This document shows positions 20,819-37,336 of a stretch of 64,000 nt of DNA, piece after piece. Where the stretch lies: NCBI GenBank assembly GCA_016906335.1, contig JADEYG010000007.1, positions 1,814,001 to 1,878,000 of the forward strand. Reading direction: 5' to 3'. Made by a program: the position numbers and the translations under genes. How positions within the stretch are numbered: position 1 is the stretch's first letter; every line of letters begins with the position of its first letter. Origin of the DNA: Novakomyces olei (lineage: Eukaryota > Ascomycota > Novakomycetes > Novakomycetales > Novakomycetaceae). The notes beneath the pieces were generated by a model, which saw only the letters and a list, made by a program, of their open reading frames with translations, had not been told where the DNA came from and did no database searches.

Positions 20819-21011
20819 TGAGCCAATCTGAATTACAGACACAAACTCATGAGCCTGAGTGTTTTGAGCAACTCAACTTCAATGTCGGCCGGCCCCTAAA
20901 CGATAATAATTGCCAATAAATTTTGAGTTATGTTGTATTCATGTGTTGAATTATTGGAGTTATTTTGAAGTTCGAATGGTTTATCTAATAATTTATTGTA
21001 AAGTAATGTAG

Positions 21012-22588
21012 GTATAATAATGTATGTGTGAATTATGTATGGTGTTAATATATGGTATTTATGTATGGGGATTAATGTTTGGGGGAATAATAGCTATTAT
21101 TACTAGCGACATTTCAACGAAATGTCAGCTGGTATTATTTTTTTTGTATAATAATTGCATTGTCTAAAATCGAGAAAACCCTAGATATATTCAAGACGGA
21201 ATTATGGCGAAATTCCTTTATATGTAATGTGATTTTATTATGTATAAATCTAGTCAGGGTTTTCGCTTTTCCTTTACGCCATAATTCCGTTTTGAAAAAT
21301 AATTAATGTGGTCATGCCAATTTCCTTCGCATTCCCGCGAATTATGGCGTAATTCTAATTAGAATTGTAGGAAAAACGTGGAGGCAGGGTTTTTTAGGAA
21401 GAATTTTTACGGCTTAATTCCAAAATAATATGGGAATAATATATTAATTTAATTAAATATTAAACAATTAACAAATATTATAAATGCTACAGAACTATAA
21501 GCTATTATAACTTATTGTCAATTTGTCTTGAAAGTTATTATTGATGAATAAATTAATGTTATTATACTTAAAAATGTTAATAAATTATTATAATGGTAAT
21601 AAATTTATTAAAAATTCTAATACTCCATATATTGCAACTTTTAATACTAATGCTCTATTATTTATTGAATAATAAATATATATCCATAATCGCGCCTTTA
21701 GGCCTTCGGGAACCTTTATATTCTTTTCCACAGTATAATATACACGACCCATAAAATACATCCTGGGGCATCATGAGCTTTTTATAAATCTTTAAACCCA
21801 TATATCTCCATAAATACTAATCCAATCTTGTAACCAAATATAAATTTACACTCCTACTGCTCCCCTCTATCCAACCATATACATTTTGTAAAAACACTTT
21901 TCATTCGACGTTTTGTCACCTCTACACATGGACTACACACTCTTAATTTTTCTTATTTTTCTGACGTTTTTCTTATTATACTCTATTACTATGTTGCTTT
22001 CTAATATTTATATTATATTATCAGACAACTATAATATGTGTAGCCCAGCTTGTATAATAATTATATTTATAAATTCAACAACTACCCTTGCAGACAATAT
22101 TGTTTGCCAATTTTTTGGAATTAAGTCGTAAAATATTTTTTCTCTAACTTCGTTCTTACCCCCGTTTATGCCAATTTCCTTAGCATTCCCGCGCAATTTC
22201 CCATATTATATTTTGGAATTTAGCCGTAAAAATTCTTCCTAAAAAACCCTGCCTCCACGTTTTTCCTACAATTCTAATTAGAATTACGCCATAATTCGCG
22301 GGAATGCGAAGGAATTGGCATGACCCCATTAATTATTTTTCAAAACGGAATTATGGCGTAAAGGAAAAGCGAAAACCCTGACTAGATTTATACATAATAA
22401 AAATCACATTACAAATAAATGGAATTTCGCCATAATTCCGTCTTGAATATATCTAGGGTTTTCTCGATTTTTAGACAATGCAATTATTATACGAAAAAAT
22501 AATACCAGCTGACATTTCGTCGAAATGTCGCTAGTAATAATAGCTATTATTCCCCCAAACATAATTCACACATACATTATTATACATA
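21012..22588. mobile_element. Palindromic foldback (long inverted repeat) element
   Basis: Two arms of about 400 bp, 21012-21435 and 22198-22588, are inverted copies that align almost base for base. They flank about 760 bp of AT-rich spacer. Each arm contains alternating-orientation copies of GAATTATGGCG, the near-perfect palindrome GACATTTCGTCGAAATGTC and the perfect palindrome AATAATAGCTATTATT, so each arm folds on itself as well as on the other arm. The outer ends run into 15-bp tandem units (TGTATGGAGGAATAA type). No transposase is visible, and the only spacer frame (21913-22131, hydrophobic, about 72 codons) is unconvincing. It looks like a non-autonomous foldback transposon or large MITE. 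I could not fix a target-site duplication. Confidence 0.7.
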
Positions 22589-22690
22589 CATTATTCTTCC
22601 ATACATTATTCCTCCATACATTATTCCTCCATACATTATTCTACCATGCATTATTCCTCCATACATTATTCCTCCACACATTATTAACCA
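22575..22690. repeat. 15-bp minisatellite (CATACATTATTCCTC type)
   Basis: Six or seven imperfect tandem copies of a 15-bp unit directly outside the right arm of the foldback element. Degenerate units of the same kind (TGTATGGNGNNAATA) lie at 21035-21075 in the left arm, so the array is probably part of the element's ends. Confidence 0.75.
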
Positions 22691-23739
22691 ATACAAGTAT
22701 GCAAACGAAAGGCTACTCACTAAATTTAGTCACTGAATGGATGAAGTGATGTTCAGTCAGAATCTGGCTGTTCCGAAAAAAGCACTTAAAGCTTTAGCCG
22801 TTACTTATATTTCATTCTTCATTCTTCATCTATCCATTCAAGCATTCAAAAAATTTAAATTAATATTGTATTTGCGTATATTTGTAATATTTTATACTGT
22901 ATAGTGCTTTTCAGATGACTCGCAGTAATTAAGACAATAATGTCTGTACCATTAAAATTCGAAGTTTCGTTTATTTGGCGCTAAATTTTCCACCTGGTGA
23001 TAATATAAAAAGTTACTCAAAAAATTTGATATTTGGTCCAGTCAGATTTGCGAAAAAAAAGCGAAGACCCGATTTATTGTCTCTAATTTTCAGTTCATAT
23101 TTTTTTTCATATAGAGAGAGAATGTCTGCATTCATTCATGAGTCGTCCAATGGATTGGATATATTTGCCCATCTTCAATGGAATTGAATCGTCATTGTTT
23201 GCGAAACTTTAAAATTTTCTTCTGCAAGTTTTAATCAACTTCAATCCCCAAAAACATTTGTGATTTTGTCTTAAGTTTGACTTCAAAATACCTTTGATTA
23301 TAATATTGAAATCGTTTTGAAATTCCCTTAATTCGTTCGGTAACTGATGAAATGACCGACATTGATTATAACAGAAATGCCACCTTATGTACGAATTGTC
23401 TGGCCTATCGTAAATTTCTTCAAATTTAAATTTTCTAGAAATTTTCGAGGCCATCTGCAGTGCTCAGAATGTTTCTCTACTTTTTCAACGAGACTATAAA
23501 TACATATAGTACGCTTTTTCTAGGGTTCTGTGAAGAAATGCCGTATTTAATTCGAGTTGATAAATTCATAATCCATTTTTTAAAGCGGCAGTGTGACAAC
23601 CTTATTGTTTCATTTGAGGTGCCCCTTGCGCACCATTCAATACGTTCAAATCTATGCTTTTTGCTTGAAGAAGCCTTTTACGACTAGTGTCTCTTTGAAT
23701 CAGACGACATTTTGCTTTTCACCTTATATATGCTTAAAT

Positions 23740-23945
23740 CTCTTTTTGCGTCTTTCAATGTAAACGATAGCCAAAATGTTATCTGCGCTTTTCACTCTAT
23801 CATCAAACGTTTTGTAGGGCATTTTCCTTTTCAAGCATACTTCACAATTATTATCAATTCTTTTGCTTGATTTGACAGACGAGCTAAATATACTTTTTCC
23901 TCTTAAATTTCCTTAATTTTCAAGAGACAGGAGTTGTGTGTTGCC
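23740..23945 (-). mobile_element. Ty1/copia fossil fragment (pre-integrase zinc-binding region)
   Basis: Reading the - strand gives a stretch with CEVCLKRKMPYKTF, the CxxC-type signature of the copia GAG-pre-integrase/integrase junction, followed by weakly similar sequence. It is short, degraded, and differs from the larger copia fossil next to it, so it comes from a separate, older insertion. No LTRs were found for it. Confidence 0.5.
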
Positions 23946-24471
23946 CAATTTATTTTTTTTTTCTATTCTTGACTCCCTTCGAGACATTCCCAAGCCAATC
24001 TGATGAATACATCTAAGCCATAGTGGGTGAAGCGTCTATAAATAGAGTAGTCGATCAGCGAATTAATTAAAAATATTAGCAATATTAACAATAATAAATT
24101 GCTCACCAAATAAACAATTACAGTAAATGCCCAAGTTTTCTGTGCCATGAAAGTCTTTCGTTTTTGTATTTGCCATTATCTTATTATATATAAAATCCAG
24201 ATAAAAAATTTAGCACGAAATTAAATTGTCAGGAATTACTAAGGCTTTATCGCTTAATATTACAGAACCGATTTCTTTATCGCAAAATATCTCCGTGCTT
24301 TAATATGTTTTTGATTGACGTAAAATCTACCAGTATATTTGGCTGTGCATACGTCCAGTTACTAATCGTCTGATGCTTTATATTTACCTCGATCTCAAAC
24401 ACAAATGTATCGCTTGTTTTTGCATGTAGTTTCTTTTTAACATTCATTTCTATTAATTATGTTATTAATTA

Positions 24472-24723
24472 TGCTGAAATTATTGATGTAAGTATTGTTT
24501 AATAGGTTGTTCGTACGGTTAATATTAATTATCTTACTTCAGTAAAAGACAGTGAAATTCCCCAAGGTCAAAGGGATTCATCCATGGATATGTATATTCA
24601 TATCCAGAACGTAGGTAAGCAAATACGGGGTAAAGACAGATCGTAATAGTTTCAATTTTGGCTAAAGGAATGAGAGTATTTAGAAAAGTAAATTTATAAG
24701 TTGACAGAGTCCATATTTCAACA
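24472..24723 (-). repeat. Left LTR of the copia fossil (3' LTR)
   Basis: 252 bp, pairs with 29169-29421. From about 24545 rightward it is almost identical to the other LTR, while the first about 75 bp differ markedly. Confidence 0.92.
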
Positions 24724-26153: not shown

Positions 26154-27872
26154 CTACATGCTGATTGTCAGATTTTGTAATTTTTTCCATACATTATTTC
26201 TGTTCATTGCCTCAAGTTCTTTACTAAGTGCTTTTTTCCACTCAGAACTGTATGGACCGTTGACAGCTTCATAGTAGCTTTGTGGTTCCATAGGTAGATC
26301 TGTAACATTGTTCGCTTGTTCATCCGGTTTTGTGCTTATTTTGAGGTAATCGTCTCCTTCCAATAAAGGCGATAGCACTTTTCTCAGTTTTTCATTGGAT
26401 ACACCTGGGGACTTTAATTTTCTTTTTCCAGATAATATCTCGGTCAATTCATTGTTATCCCTTTTTTCATCTGCCATGTCAATATGATCAATATCAGTGG
26501 TTTTGTCTTCTTCACTAATATTTTGGATATTTTCAGCCATATCGTCCGCACCATCTAATGATAAGGCCCCAGTTCCAACATTCATTTCATTATTTGTAAT
26601 ATCAGATTTAATTTCATCTGATGTCTTTTCTTGTGCAGTAGATTCAGCATTGTCTGAGTTATCTGTAGATGTGTCCGCTGTATAATAATTCGATAATTTG
26701 TCGCCTTTATTCAAATAATTTCGTATTTGAGACTCATTTGTAGGGGAACTGGTAGTTTCATTTAAATTGTTATTTAAATAACGTTCTAAAAAATTGATAT
26801 CGTAGTTGTTGAGTGAACTACTGCAGGAGGTTTGTTTAAGAAAAATGACATCTCTTGATACAATACGTTTCGCACTTTTCAATTCAGACAAAATATAACC
26901 CTTTTGAGTTTCAGAATATCCTAGGAATATATATTCTTTCTCTCTCTGTTCCAACTTAGAATTTTCTTCTGTTTGCTTATTTTTTCCAATTGCTAAACGT
27001 CCAAAAATCTTTAAATTATACAAGTTCAGTGCTTTTCCATATAACATTTCGAACGGAGTTTTTGGACTCGATTTAGTTGCAATCTGTTTTTAAGATAGCA
27101 CTTGTTAAAATAGCGTCTGTTCAGAACCGTAATGGAACGTTTTTATTTAATAATTTAGCTCTTGCTTTTGACGTTATTGTCCATATGCCTCGCTCTGCCA
27201 CTCTATTTTGTACCAAATTGTTGGGGTCTGATGTATTATTCTAATTTTTTTTGTTAGCATTGATATTTCTGAATTTAAAAATTCAAGCCTATTGTCTTTT
27301 CCAAATATTTTTATTCTTTTTCCAAATTGAGTTTTAATAAATGGAAGAAATTCTGAAAACAGGTTTGGTACTTCACTTTTATCTTTCATAAGATAGAGAA
27401 ACGTATAATCAGATTAGTCTTCTGTAAATGTAACAAAATATTTGTAATTTGATTCGGACTGAATATTAATAGCGCCGCAAACATCACTATGAACTAGATC
27501 AAATAATTGTGTTGGCCTAGTTCTACCATCTGTGGGGAATGGTGTCCTTGTAATGTTTGAGAGCTTGCACGTAGAGCACGCTTCGGTCTCATTAGTACGT
27601 AAATTTTGTAATTTTCCCACTGCTTTTCCGTTTTTCAATTCAATCGTATATTGCTTACTTGCATGGCCAAGACGTTCATGCCATGTTTCGTAAGAATTTT
27701 GTAAAATGGAATTAACTTGTTGAACATTCTCTTTTTGTATAGATATCGTATTAAACGAGTATATGTTATTCTCCTCGTTCAGACGTATAAGCGGTTTGTC
27801 ATTACTCATCATAACTTTATCTCTGTCAGATATCGAGAACGTTTTTTCTCCATTAAATTCTTTTAATAACAA
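26154..27872 (-). pseudogene. Copia fossil: GAG-pre-integrase and integrase region
   Basis: The right part has ETWHERLGHAS, the CxxCK motif and FDLVHSDVCGAI, hallmarks of the copia GAG-pre-integrase domain and integrase start. The middle part (27174-27389) keeps integrase-core similarity. The left part (26154-27047) holds the integrase C-terminal KIFGRLA / EKEYIFLGYSETQKGY block followed by an acidic linker. Fossil, broken. Confidence 0.85.
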
Positions 27873-28063
27873 GTTTATTCCATATTTTGGAGTGTACAGG
27901 ACATTTGATAAAATTTATTTATTATTGTAAACGTCATTAATCTTTAAATATCGTTCCAACTCTTTCAATTGGAGAGAACGTTATTTTTTCCTGTCTGAAT
28001 TTTTGTCTCAACCCTTGTAAAAACATTTTAAATCAAAGCAAATGTGACTAGAAGCGCTTGTAT

Positions 28064-29074
28064 CTAAAATCCATTGTGTAGATTTTTTAGGTACATTCTT
28101 ATATAGTCACAAGATAGGCTCATTTTTATTAGTCGTAATACTATAAACTGTGTGAGATTTGCTTTTTTAGTCTCGTTTCTTTTTCGACAATCTTTTTCGG
28201 TATGTCCATACCTTTTCACAGTTTTGACAGTGTTTTGTATAGGAAAGTATATCAAGCTTGTGCAGCAGCTGATTACTTAGTAAAAAATGAAATTTTACCC
28301 TGGTAATTGTGACTGTCATTGAGAAGACTATAAATAGATCTAGATAGAACTATGTTGGCTAACGAAATTGAATACAACACGTTTCAAATTAACACGTTCG
28401 AAATTATAGATTCAACATTTTGTTCCTTTCCCTTTAGGATTTTTGAAACAATCATTAGCCCTGAGTCCAATTCGTCCACAAAAAGAGCATTTGGGTGTGG
28501 GGTTGACCGATTCCCTATTTGGGAGTAATTTAGCAGTAATTTTAGAGCTAACATTGCGGCGAACGTTCTCCGCAATTTCTTTTGGTAATGCCAATAAAAT
28601 CCCACAGTACGTAAAATACGTGAGCTCCGTAAATCCTAGACGAACGAGACTGATCACGATGTTTCTGTAACCGTTCATAAACTTTTCAGGGTCTCCTCCC
28701 CACAATTTTTGAGGAGCCATGAACTTAGTGGCCACAGCTTCAATCTTTTGATTTACATTTTTGCCAAATTCCAAATCGAGTAATTTAAAGAGCGCTTTTG
28801 GCGATTTTATTCCTTCAATGCGGAAAGTAAGTAGATTTTCGTTTATCGCCTCGATTAGCTTGGCTGTGATTACGAGAACGGTGACTTTCGGGATATTGGA
28901 GTGTTGTTCGCTCTCCAATAATGCGGAGAACCCATGCAGTTCCAATCTGTTTGTAATTTTCAACTTCCATTCACTATACTCGTGCCACGATTTCAACATT
29001 GGAATTATTCCAAGTATTATTGTATTCTTTCTCAAACTATTGGCGAGTCCGGGGGTGACGTCTGGTTGAGCCAT
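28064..29074 (-). pseudogene. Copia fossil: Gag region with zinc knuckles, interrupted by a nested repeat
   Basis: 28412-29074 encodes a copia-type capsid segment (WHEYSEWKLKITNRL, LLDLEFGKN) and a C-terminal CSFCGRIGLRANDC knuckle-like motif. The piece at 28064-28237 has RYGHTEKDCRK, a second knuckle part. Between them sits the 180-bp repeat at 28238-28417. Fossil. Confidence 0.8.
28238..28417 (+). repeat. LTR-like repeat, copy A, nested in the copia fossil
   Basis: 180 bp beginning TATAGGAAAG and ending GATTCAACA, flanked by the 5-bp duplication TTTTG (28233-28237 and 28418-28422). Near-identical to copies B (30422-30602) and C (35994-36171). It interrupts the Gag region of the copia fossil, so it inserted later. 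Read on the opposite strand it starts with TGTTGAATC. Best read as a solo LTR or a short non-autonomous LTR element. Confidence 0.85.
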
Positions 29075-29168: not shown

Positions 29169-29421
29169 TGTTGAAATTATTGATGTAAATATTGCGAGAT
29201 AGATTGTCCAAACGGTTAATATTAATAATTTTGCTACAGTAAAAGACAGTGAAACTCCCCCAAGGTCAAAGGGATTCATCCATGGATATGTATATTCATA
29301 TCCAGAACGTAGGTAAGCAAATACGGGGTAAAGACAGATCGTAATAGTTTCAATTTTGGCTAAAGGAATGAGAGTATTTAGAAAAGTAAATTTATAAGTC
29401 GACAGAGTCCATATTTCAACA
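29169..29421 (-). repeat. Right LTR of the copia fossil (5' LTR)
   Basis: 253 bp, TG...CA. Partner of 24472-24723 and followed by the target duplication AATTA. Its inner end abuts the primer site. Confidence 0.92.
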
Positions 29422-30182: not shown

Positions 30183-30421
30183 AGATTCTGCAATTTTCAA
30201 CAATTGCCAATCTTATTAGGGTTATGTAATAAGTAAACTTCTGAGCCTTGTTCCACAAATCCTAACGCCTATTTCTTTTTTTTTTATAAACGCCCAATGT
30301 ATGAGCAATGGCTCAAAACAAACTAATATACTCTGCTTCGCAATTCGATAAAGTGGCAAGCTTTTAATTTTTAGGCACCCCGTAAATTTATGATGCCATG
30401 CAAAACTTCTTTCCAATTTAT

Positions 30422-30602
30422 TGTTGAATCTATAATTTCGAACGTGTTAATTTGAAACGTGTTGTATTCAATTTCGTTTGCCAACATAGTTCTATCTAGA
30501 TCTATTTATAGTCTTCTCAATGACAGTCACAATTACCAGGGTAAACTTCATTTTTTTTTCTAAGTAATCAGCTGCTGCACAAGCTTGATATACTTTCCTA
30601 TA
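30422..30602 (-). repeat. LTR-like repeat, copy B
   Basis: 181 bp in the opposite orientation to copies A and C, flanked by the 5-bp duplication TTTAT (30417-30421 and 30603-30607). Nearly identical to A and C. Confidence 0.85.
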
Positions 30603-30899
30603 TTTATCACATGCATAATCGGCACCGCAACAAACGAAAACTGCTGCTGTGATTGCATTACTCTTTATGCTTCTTGTATCGCGCAAATACATTGTAATGT
30701 ATTTAAACTTCTCGGCATTCATTAGTTAGCTTTATCGGACATCTTATCTGGCCTTGAGCATCTACGTATCCAAAGTGTCGAAACTTCTAATTGGCTTGTT
30801 TAAAGAACCGATGTTAAATTTATTTAGCGCTTAATTTAATTGAGACTAACGCTGAACTATATATATACCTAAATTCCTGTCACTGAGTCACTTGTTCGT

Positions 30900-34019: not shown

Positions 34020-35060
34020 TATCTTTAATATGACATCTTTAATATAATATCTTTAATCTTTAATCTTTAATATAATATAATATGTATATATAATATAATA
34101 TGTATATATAATATATCTAATATCTAATATCTAATATATATAAAATAATATATTATAATATAATGTTTAATAATATTTCAAATGATTAATAAATTAGTTA
34201 ATCAAAGTTTTTAATTAAAGTTTTTAATTAATTTATATTAAATTGGGTAATAGAAAGTTAATGAACATATAAATATTTATATTATAATATAATATATATA
34301 TTCTATATATATTTATAGCTATAAATTATAATATATGTATTATACATACTAAATTATATTTACAAGAGATTTAATTATATTTATAAAATATTAGATTTAT
34401 TTAATATTATATTTGATTTATATTTATATTTATATTTATATTTACTTTAAATAAAAAAAAATAATTAATTTTTTTTGCACCATAAATATAGTTAACATTT
34501 ATAATATTAGTCATTTGTTTAATATTTAATTAAATTAATATATTATATTTATACTAACTATAAATCAATAAGTTTATTATTAATTATAAACACACAATAA
34601 CCTTATATATATGATACTGATAATGATAATAATAATAATAATGATAGGTGTTTAAACAAACATATATTTATATTAAATAATAAGTATGGCATAAAAATAT
34701 ATATATATATATAATTAAACTTTGATATTGCAAAGAAAGTTTAATTATTGTATTATATAATAATTAAAAACATTACATTTTTAATACCAATTTTTAATAT
34801 TTTACATCTTAATTTATTAAATATAATTATAGATTTATTTATATAACATTTACTGGGATAACCATAGAGCTTTTTTTTTCCGTTTTATCTATAGACGAAT
34901 AGTTCATTTACACTTTCGTCTCCATATTTTATTTTATGTTGTATGACCAATATAGCATTTTTTATTGTTGTTTATTCTATTCTATTGAATTTCTTATATA
35001 TATTTATATTTTATATTATTATATTCTATATCTATATTTATAGCTAAATAAATAAAGAAA
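34020..35060. repeat. Extremely AT-rich low-complexity tract
   Basis: About 1 kb made almost only of A and T (TAATATAATATC-type and ATATTTATA-type runs, ATAATAATA near 34630). No coding potential. Such tracts are common in fungal centromeric or other heterochromatic DNA, or can derive from mitochondrial intergenic DNA. Confidence 0.8.
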
Positions 35061-35993: not shown

Positions 35994-36171
35994 TATAGGG
36001 TATATCAAGCTTGTGCAGCAGCTGATTACTTAGAAAAAAAAATGAAGTTTACCCTGGTAATTGTGACTGTCATTGAGAAGACTATAAATAGATCTAGATA
36101 GAACTATGTTGGCCAACGAAATTGAATACAACACGTTTCAAATTAACACGTTCGAAATTATAGATTCAACA
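35994..36171 (+). repeat. LTR-like repeat, copy C
   Basis: 178 bp, flanked by the 5-bp duplication AAATG (35989-35993 and 36172-36176). Nearly identical to copies A and B. Confidence 0.85.
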
Positions 36172-37336
36172 AAATGGAATCTTTTTGGAAAATTAAATTA
36201 TACTCTTAGCTTTTCAAGCCAAACCTTATTCCCCTTATCTGTATGCAAAGCAGAATATGCACGTGCATGTTCAGCAGCTATTATCAAATTGACAATACCA
36301 ATTTAACTACAAAAATGCTAGATCCAGATCGCTCAATTTGGTTTTGTTTTGTCAAAAGCAAGCATTCCAATGTATCATGTTTCTATAAAATCTGGGTGAA
36401 GAACGGGTTATTTTTACGGATTTGCAAAAAATGCTGATGTCTAAATAAAGCAATTTCGCAAAAAGAGGTTGTTTATCAAAAAAAAAAACGTTTGTACGGA
36501 AGTTCCTAAGTTGAATATCGCGGGCTTGTGACCGATTGTCGGAATTGTTTCAAACTTTAAAATTTCCAATGATTTTTTCTGTTTGGATAATATACCTTGT
36601 GCAACATTACATAGCGGAGAAACAACTCCCCAAGACTCATTAAAGCTTAAGCGAGAAGCTAGTTAAACAATGTCACCGAGGCAGAAACGATCGGTTAAAA
36701 CAAATACGACAGTTAGATAAAACGCTGACAGATAGCACAGATGACTATACCGTTAAATGCTTTACTAAAAGTATGTAGAGACAAAATTATACAATTAATA
36801 TAATTTTGTTATCATAAAATAGCCTCTGTCCTGAAATTATCATTGTATTATCGATCTATTTATTTCAATCTATTATATCAATATCGATGTCTACATTATT
36901 AAAAAAATGCAGTGAGACTTCGAAAAGTTTTAGTGTTCTTTACAGTCAAAGAAGTTGAACTATTTATTTGTAATCCAAATGTCTGCAGTAGTTAATTGTT
37001 TCGGGTGCAAAAACACATTTTTGCAGATCAAAATAACCCTCAAATTCTAAATAAACATTTTGAACAATTTTTGAGCACTTTTCTCCGAGTGATATGTGAT
37101 TTTGACCTATGTTTATTTAAAGCTTTGATTTGCGTGAACCTGGCCTGAAACTAATTAAATTTAAATCACAATTTATTTTCAGATTGAACTTCCTAAAATA
37201 ATGGTATTAAACCAGCAAGAATACAAAGAAAAAAACGGTCGGTCCACATATTTATTCACATTATTTGTTTTAGCATTAATCAATTTCATTTTAGCAATAG
37301 CGGCTTACAACAACTTACTGGCGAAACTATAAAGAT

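Follow-up and report, generated by a model that had tools for sequence, protein, structure and literature searches.

Loss of chromosome number in the yeasts studied has been traced mainly to telomere-to-telomere fusion (PMC3141009). Chromosome fusions in Kwoniella are described as marked by inversions, and one of two models for them involves a telocentric or acrocentric intermediate (PMC11185503). Human cells are documented to capture mtDNA at their chromosome ends (PMC6690834), and palindromes are reported to follow telomere loss in yeast (PMC4981268). Singly, these ingredients are already known; no description of an mtDNA-sealed internalised subtelomere in a budding yeast was found among the open-licence papers listed, which is a weak negative. 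Here a foldback is described from a 64-kb stretch of DNA, referred to as the window (C7:1814001-1878000), in a genome of 14.34 Mb and 15 contigs. Contig C7 is the longest of the 15 (2.62 Mb) and carries telomere repeats at both ends. Positions given without a contig are those of the window.

Structure of the foldback

The inverted arms reported by a first-pass annotation of the same DNA are borne out: aligning 21070-21427 with 22209-22567 gives 360 columns, of which 349 agree, 5 are substituted and 6 hold gaps. Divergence between the arms is 1.4% (5 substitutions in 354 ungapped columns), or 1.1% for piece B alone. Their longest stretch of exact inverted identity measures 93 bases; in 200 random first-order Markov sequences no such stretch exceeded 19. 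The repeated unit in alternating orientation and the two palindromes were also found where they had been placed. GAATTATGGCG occurs at 21199, 21339 and 22348, and its reverse complement at 21277, 22287 and 22428 (three per orientation); a 16-base palindrome occurs in two copies, at 21086 and 22536; and a 19-base palindrome is present at 22511 as GACATTTCGTCGAAATGTC and at 21108 as GACATTTCAACGAAATGTC, the left copy being one base off symmetry. The ends merge into a minisatellite, as had been noted, with a 15-base period on the right (22546-22685) and a weak 14-base period on the left (21018-21084). Such inverted arms may be fragile. Rfam at gathering thresholds and a tRNA scan with bacterial settings gave nothing within the 64-kb window.

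Likeness to living chromosome-end DNA spans approximately 20986-22695, excluding 21436-21740. The parts, from left to right, are as follows (strand in parentheses).

20944-20985 (+): first third of a dispersed element, E (~130 bases), cut near its position 38; matches at interior places on C1, C9, C15 and C7.
20986-21085 (+): subtelomeric minisatellite, apparently now inverted; matches the minisatellite after the core in living subtelomeres.
21086-21180 (+): left-arm piece A, with the 16- and 19-base palindromes; 1 substitution relative to living copy L016.
21181-21436 (+): left-arm piece B, broken off at 21436; 5.0-6.9% substitutions relative to living copies, 10.1% for L026.
21436-21489 (+): mtDNA-like insert, piece 1; 49/54 to C6:62462-62515 and 50/54 to a nuclear insert at 34 kb.
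21485-21669 (-): mtDNA-like insert, piece 2, in a nad4-like frame; C6:60853-61051, 2 substitutions in 183 ungapped columns plus 18 gap columns.
21659-21740 (-): rest of element E, reversed; matches C1:1445459, C9:1589087 and C7:1963573.
21750-22208 (-): core of the subtelomeric element; ~89-92% over most subtelomeric copies.
22209-22456 (-): right-arm piece B; matches living subtelomeric copies.
22457-22551 (-): right-arm piece A; matches subtelomeric copies.
22546-22695 (-): subtelomeric 15-base minisatellite, inner side; repeat period and subtelomere match.

Relatives of the arms at chromosome ends

Most contig ends examined carry telomere repeats, written TTAGTTAGGG or TTAGTCAGGG. These fit the TTNNNNAGGG form of the Yarrowia clade, reported from all but one of the species of that clade studied (PMC6746865), which makes a budding yeast related to it the likely source. 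The left arm and the centre, used as queries, both find strong matches at chromosome ends. In one search, 40 matches beyond the window were strong (E-value of 1.8e-104 or less); none of them is more than ~36 kb from the end of its contig, and all share one polarity, which for the small contigs C8, C10, C13 and C14 was taken relative to the end with telomere repeats. Forty is a lower bound, because scores were computed for 40 of 57 candidates, and a weak copy in a chromosome interior may have escaped. The remaining rows of the 57 are the window itself and 16 weaker ones: one in mtDNA, nine short and of the same polarity, and six of ~30 bases and opposite polarity. The last six lie inside living copies, where an inverted repeat of the element itself probably accounts for them.

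The window copy is the sole internal copy found (40 of 55 and 40 of 57 candidates scored). It sits 0.79 Mb from the nearer end of C7, not near a chromosome end, and is a displaced copy. The exact 19-base palindrome occurs at ten places, nine within ~20 kb of contig ends and the tenth in the window.

Living subtelomeres read, toward the telomere, piece B, core, minisatellite. Piece A lies ~330 bases inside B in four of the five fetched copies other than the window; in the fifth, L022, it is reversed and has no adjoining B. The genome has just two occurrences of the exact 21-base junction of A and B, and the window holds them both. Relative to living copies the window unit differs by 5.0-7.2% in piece B and 6.7-8.8% in the core (~10% and ~26%, respectively, relative to L026), whereas living copies differ among themselves by 1.0% on average when L026 is excluded (28 copies, 29 rows; 29 copies and 30 rows with L026, L017b and L028 being the same physical copy). 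Polarised by L026, the window branch carries 30 changes and the family branch 6, with 3 others, a weak polarisation because L026 is rich in indels. Arms that stand 5-7% from living copies and 1.4% from each other call for gene conversion, homogenised tandem units or a lost subfamily.

Two side observations concern the chromosome ends in general. The inner boundary of the subtelomeric unit is sharp, at CTAGATATATTC (29 living copies, loci L009-L026), and the sequence that precedes it sorts the 29 copies into 18 groups, as if entire end blocks had been added to broken ends. Isolated two-unit telomere motifs occur off the very ends at six or more places (C1:700245, C1:1185291, C1:1235052, C4:1133636, C4:1350814 and C3:12175).

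Flanks and probable centromere

Ordinary genes lie close by on the left flank, among them a KARI gene at 17.9-19.1 kb and an RsmB/F-NSUN5-like gene at 19.2-20.3 kb. The first ~1.26 kb of the right flank (22696-23950), searched separately, has only its own match in the genome. From 23955 onward there are repeats that also occur in the surroundings of LTR clusters on C1, C9 and C12 among the matches listed (39 of 74 candidates scored, a search that missed even the full place of its own query and is silent on absences). Further features to the right are the following.

26154-27914 (-): broken LTR-retrotransposon remnants; PF25597 and PF13976.
28238-28417 (-): 180-base LTR of the probable centromere cluster; repeat distribution.
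30415-30610 (+): 180-base LTR of the probable centromere cluster, the copy used as query; repeat distribution.
34041-34854 (-): second mtDNA insert, within the LTR cluster; C6:62098-63067, 74%, 60 substitutions in 799 ungapped columns.
35994-36172 (-): 180-base LTR of the probable centromere cluster; repeat distribution.

We take the remnants with PF25597 and PF13976 to be copia-like. All 33 matches of the 180-base LTR fall into eight clusters, one each on C1, C2, C3, C4, C7, C9, C12 and C15 (31 of 31 candidates scored); every large contig except C5 has a single cluster, and C5 has none. Telomere motifs are present at the left end only of C5, and the left end of C12 is without one; that C5 and C12 are one chromosome is a guess. 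Some budding yeasts have centromeres marked by single clusters of Ty5-like LTRs (PMC12711049), for which reason 24-37 kb, judged from repeat distribution only, is probably the centromere of C7, and the clusters of the 180-base LTR are the probable set of centromeres. A second LTR family (24472-24723 and 29169-29421) is present on chromosome arms too and lends the centromere no support. An inverted-repeat centromere at the foldback itself was considered and set aside; the palindrome is subtelomeric, and the feature found once per chromosome is the adjoining LTR cluster.

Mitochondrial-like sequence in the centre

Contig C6 carries COX1 exons (five matches, three above the curated cut-off) and is therefore mitochondrial. 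The frame on C6 from which piece 2 stems matches PF00361, and from its sequence we take it to be nad4. Piece 1 scores 83 against a shuffle maximum of 56, and piece 2 scores 305 against a maximum of 69 (100 second-order shuffles of two mitochondrial loci). The centre thus matches the mitochondrial contig beyond chance and is classed as a nuclear mtDNA insert. An organellar origin, which the first-pass annotation had raised for the structure, is borne out for this centre; the arms belong to the subtelomeric repeat family.

The low divergence of piece 2 (2/183) and that of the arms (5/354) are compatible with one fairly recent event. Piece 1, at 5/54 from mtDNA and 4/54 from the 34-kb insert, is out of keeping with so small a divergence in piece 2; as piece 1 matches that insert at 50/54 and mtDNA at 49/54, it may have been acquired from there secondhand.

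The ~0.8-kb insert at 34041-34854 is more diverged than piece 2 and has a neighbouring stretch of mtDNA as its source. It explains a kilobase of 13% GC at 34 kb, which had been a candidate for the centromere core and was set aside on its match to mtDNA. Contig C6 (96 kb) repeats itself at an offset of ~72.35 kb, as if a circle of ~72 kb had been assembled beyond its start.

A probable local inversion

The two parts of E in the window are complementary: the left part runs up to about position 38 of the element, and the remainder lies reversed in the centre. Elsewhere, among seven places fetched, E is whole in five, interrupted in L047 and represented by its first part only in L049. As a family (L047-L053 and the window parts), E has ~130 bases with weakly inverted ends and is dispersed over C1, C7, C9 and C15.

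Flipping 20986-21749 on paper raised the alignment score of E for six of seven copies, L049 being unchanged, and raised the score of core plus minisatellite for seven of seven living copies tried. Breakpoints were also tried as a grid of 936 pairs, with five of the seven E copies and three living subtelomeres as references: the E test peaked at 20991/21740 and the subtelomere test at 20966/21750, and the joint optimum was 20986/21740. With approximately 20986-21740 flipped back, E is whole again and the living order of core, then minisatellite, is restored. The locus then reads left flank, E, mtDNA, B-A-minisatellite, core-B-A-minisatellite, right flank. All units of this tandem subtelomeric array then point the same way, with the telomere side of the array toward the mtDNA and its inner side toward the LTR cluster. 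A local inversion of ~0.76 kb appears well supported because the two breakpoint tests use unrelated repeat families; the subtelomere half is weakened by the self-similarity of the minisatellite. What looks like a foldback is a tandem subtelomeric array with one of its units inverted, and such an inversion can mimic a foldback transposon.

Discussion

We favour reading the structure as an internalised chromosome end and consider this somewhat probable, with a repair patch as the main rival. A chromosome end beside its centromere would have lost its telomere and broken inside a tandem subtelomeric unit; the broken subtelomere would then have been joined via captured mtDNA to the DNA of another arm beside E; and an inversion of ~0.76 kb, simultaneous or later, would have flipped one of the two units to give the foldback. 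In support of an internalised end, subtelomeric units lie 0.79 Mb inside a contig that is telomere-capped at both ends, mtDNA-like sequence adjoins the broken edge of one of them, and the flip makes E whole and restores the living order of core and minisatellite. Against it count that no telomere motif of two exact units is found inside C7 among the matches listed, that the flanks need not once have lain on different chromosomes, that piece 1 is more diverged than piece 2 would lead one to expect, and that the arms are closer to each other than to living copies. A simple end-to-end fusion is not what the locus presents, since after flipping back one side only is subtelomeric. More specifically, and tentatively, the short-arm end of a telocentric chromosome may have been joined via captured mtDNA to the broken arm of another chromosome, leaving a scar with a later micro-inversion ~1.3 kb from centromere-type repeats; this narrower version we hold at a little short of even. 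On this reading the foldback itself is a scar, without function of its own as an element.

Under the rival reading, captured subtelomeric DNA and mtDNA filled a double-strand break next to the centromere, part of the fill was then inverted, and no chromosomes fused. Insertion of mtDNA at breaks is known (PMC7407515), and the flipped-back structure is indeed subtelomeric on one flank only. Further mtDNA inserts are likely in this genome, with one at 34 kb and candidate AT-rich matches at C4:536202, C7:380435, C5:411607, C1:1384577 and C12:49400. A patch would, however, take over 1 kb of subtelomeric DNA as well as two pieces of mtDNA; no further internal subtelomeric copy was found (40 of 55 and 40 of 57 candidates scored); and no contig is longer than C7. 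Had part of E been left on the right flank, a patch might have been favoured; none was found there, which does not decide the matter because E is whole once flipped back. We regard a patch as possible and rather doubtful. A misjoin of chromosome ends or a chimeric mitochondrial read would be an artefact of the kind to which subtelomeres, being hard to assemble, are prone; yet the window unit stands 5-9% from living copies (more from L026) that differ by 1.0% on average (28 copies), the mtDNA-like pieces bear substitutions and indels, and the adjoining right flank is single-copy, which makes an artefact very improbable.

Another candidate is that two subtelomeres simply fused head to head, the filler being mtDNA and a fragment of E, with no inversion afterwards. 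As they stand, the arms face each other with end-derived DNA on both sides and minisatellite on both outer sides, and capture of mtDNA in telomere fusions is possible, as in human cells (PMC6690834). Against this model stand the complementarity of the E parts and the breakpoint tests: the two parts bracket a segment whose flip also restores the order of core and minisatellite, and the head-to-head arrangement is gone once the inversion is flipped back. We consider it improbable. Least credible of all is the foldback transposon with long terminal inverted repeats that the first-pass annotation had raised as one possibility. Long arms and nested palindromes speak for it, but each of the 29 living copies compared has a single-armed unit, the 40 strong matches all sit near ends in one polarity, the centre is mtDNA-like, and no second copy of the inverted plan was found (40 of 55 and 40 of 57 candidates scored). 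No target-site duplication was seen by eye at the ends, both of which run into minisatellite. That proposal was to fall on a match of the arms to a repeat family, and as far as this genome goes they match one, the subtelomeric family, with a secondary inversion to explain the fold; it was rejected.

Should the joining of a telocentric chromosome be correct, the locus would record at sequence level a kind of karyotype change for which, in yeasts, gene order has mostly been the evidence. If the flanks stem from two chromosomes, this would be a budding-yeast case in which the DNA of the joined end itself survives next to the centromere that was kept, the seam being marked by mtDNA, and the order of end loss, joining, inversion and centromere loss would be readable from the sequence.

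Like the telomere-to-telomere fusions with centromere loss described for budding yeasts (PMC3141009), an internalised end would bring end DNA inside a chromosome with one centromere kept. The events in that account are read from gene order, and its telomeric translocations leave no telomere-like DNA at the points concerned; here, unlike there, subtelomeric DNA persists, on one flank once flipped back. The telocentric or acrocentric intermediate (model A there) and the inversion at the junction recall the Kwoniella fusions (PMC11185503), where the inversions described are pericentric and telomeric arrays were not found at the junctions, whereas the present inversion would measure ~0.76 kb and subtelomeric DNA survives. 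With human telomere fusions (PMC6690834) the locus would share the joining of mtDNA to a broken chromosome end; those fusions are somatic, with mtDNA in n = 4, and the present case is the sequence of one yeast assembly. Fusion sites of the Indian muntjac (PMC2760882) likewise have end DNA adjoining centromeric repeats inside a chromosome; there telomere arrays and satellites remain, and here a subtelomeric unit and LTRs.
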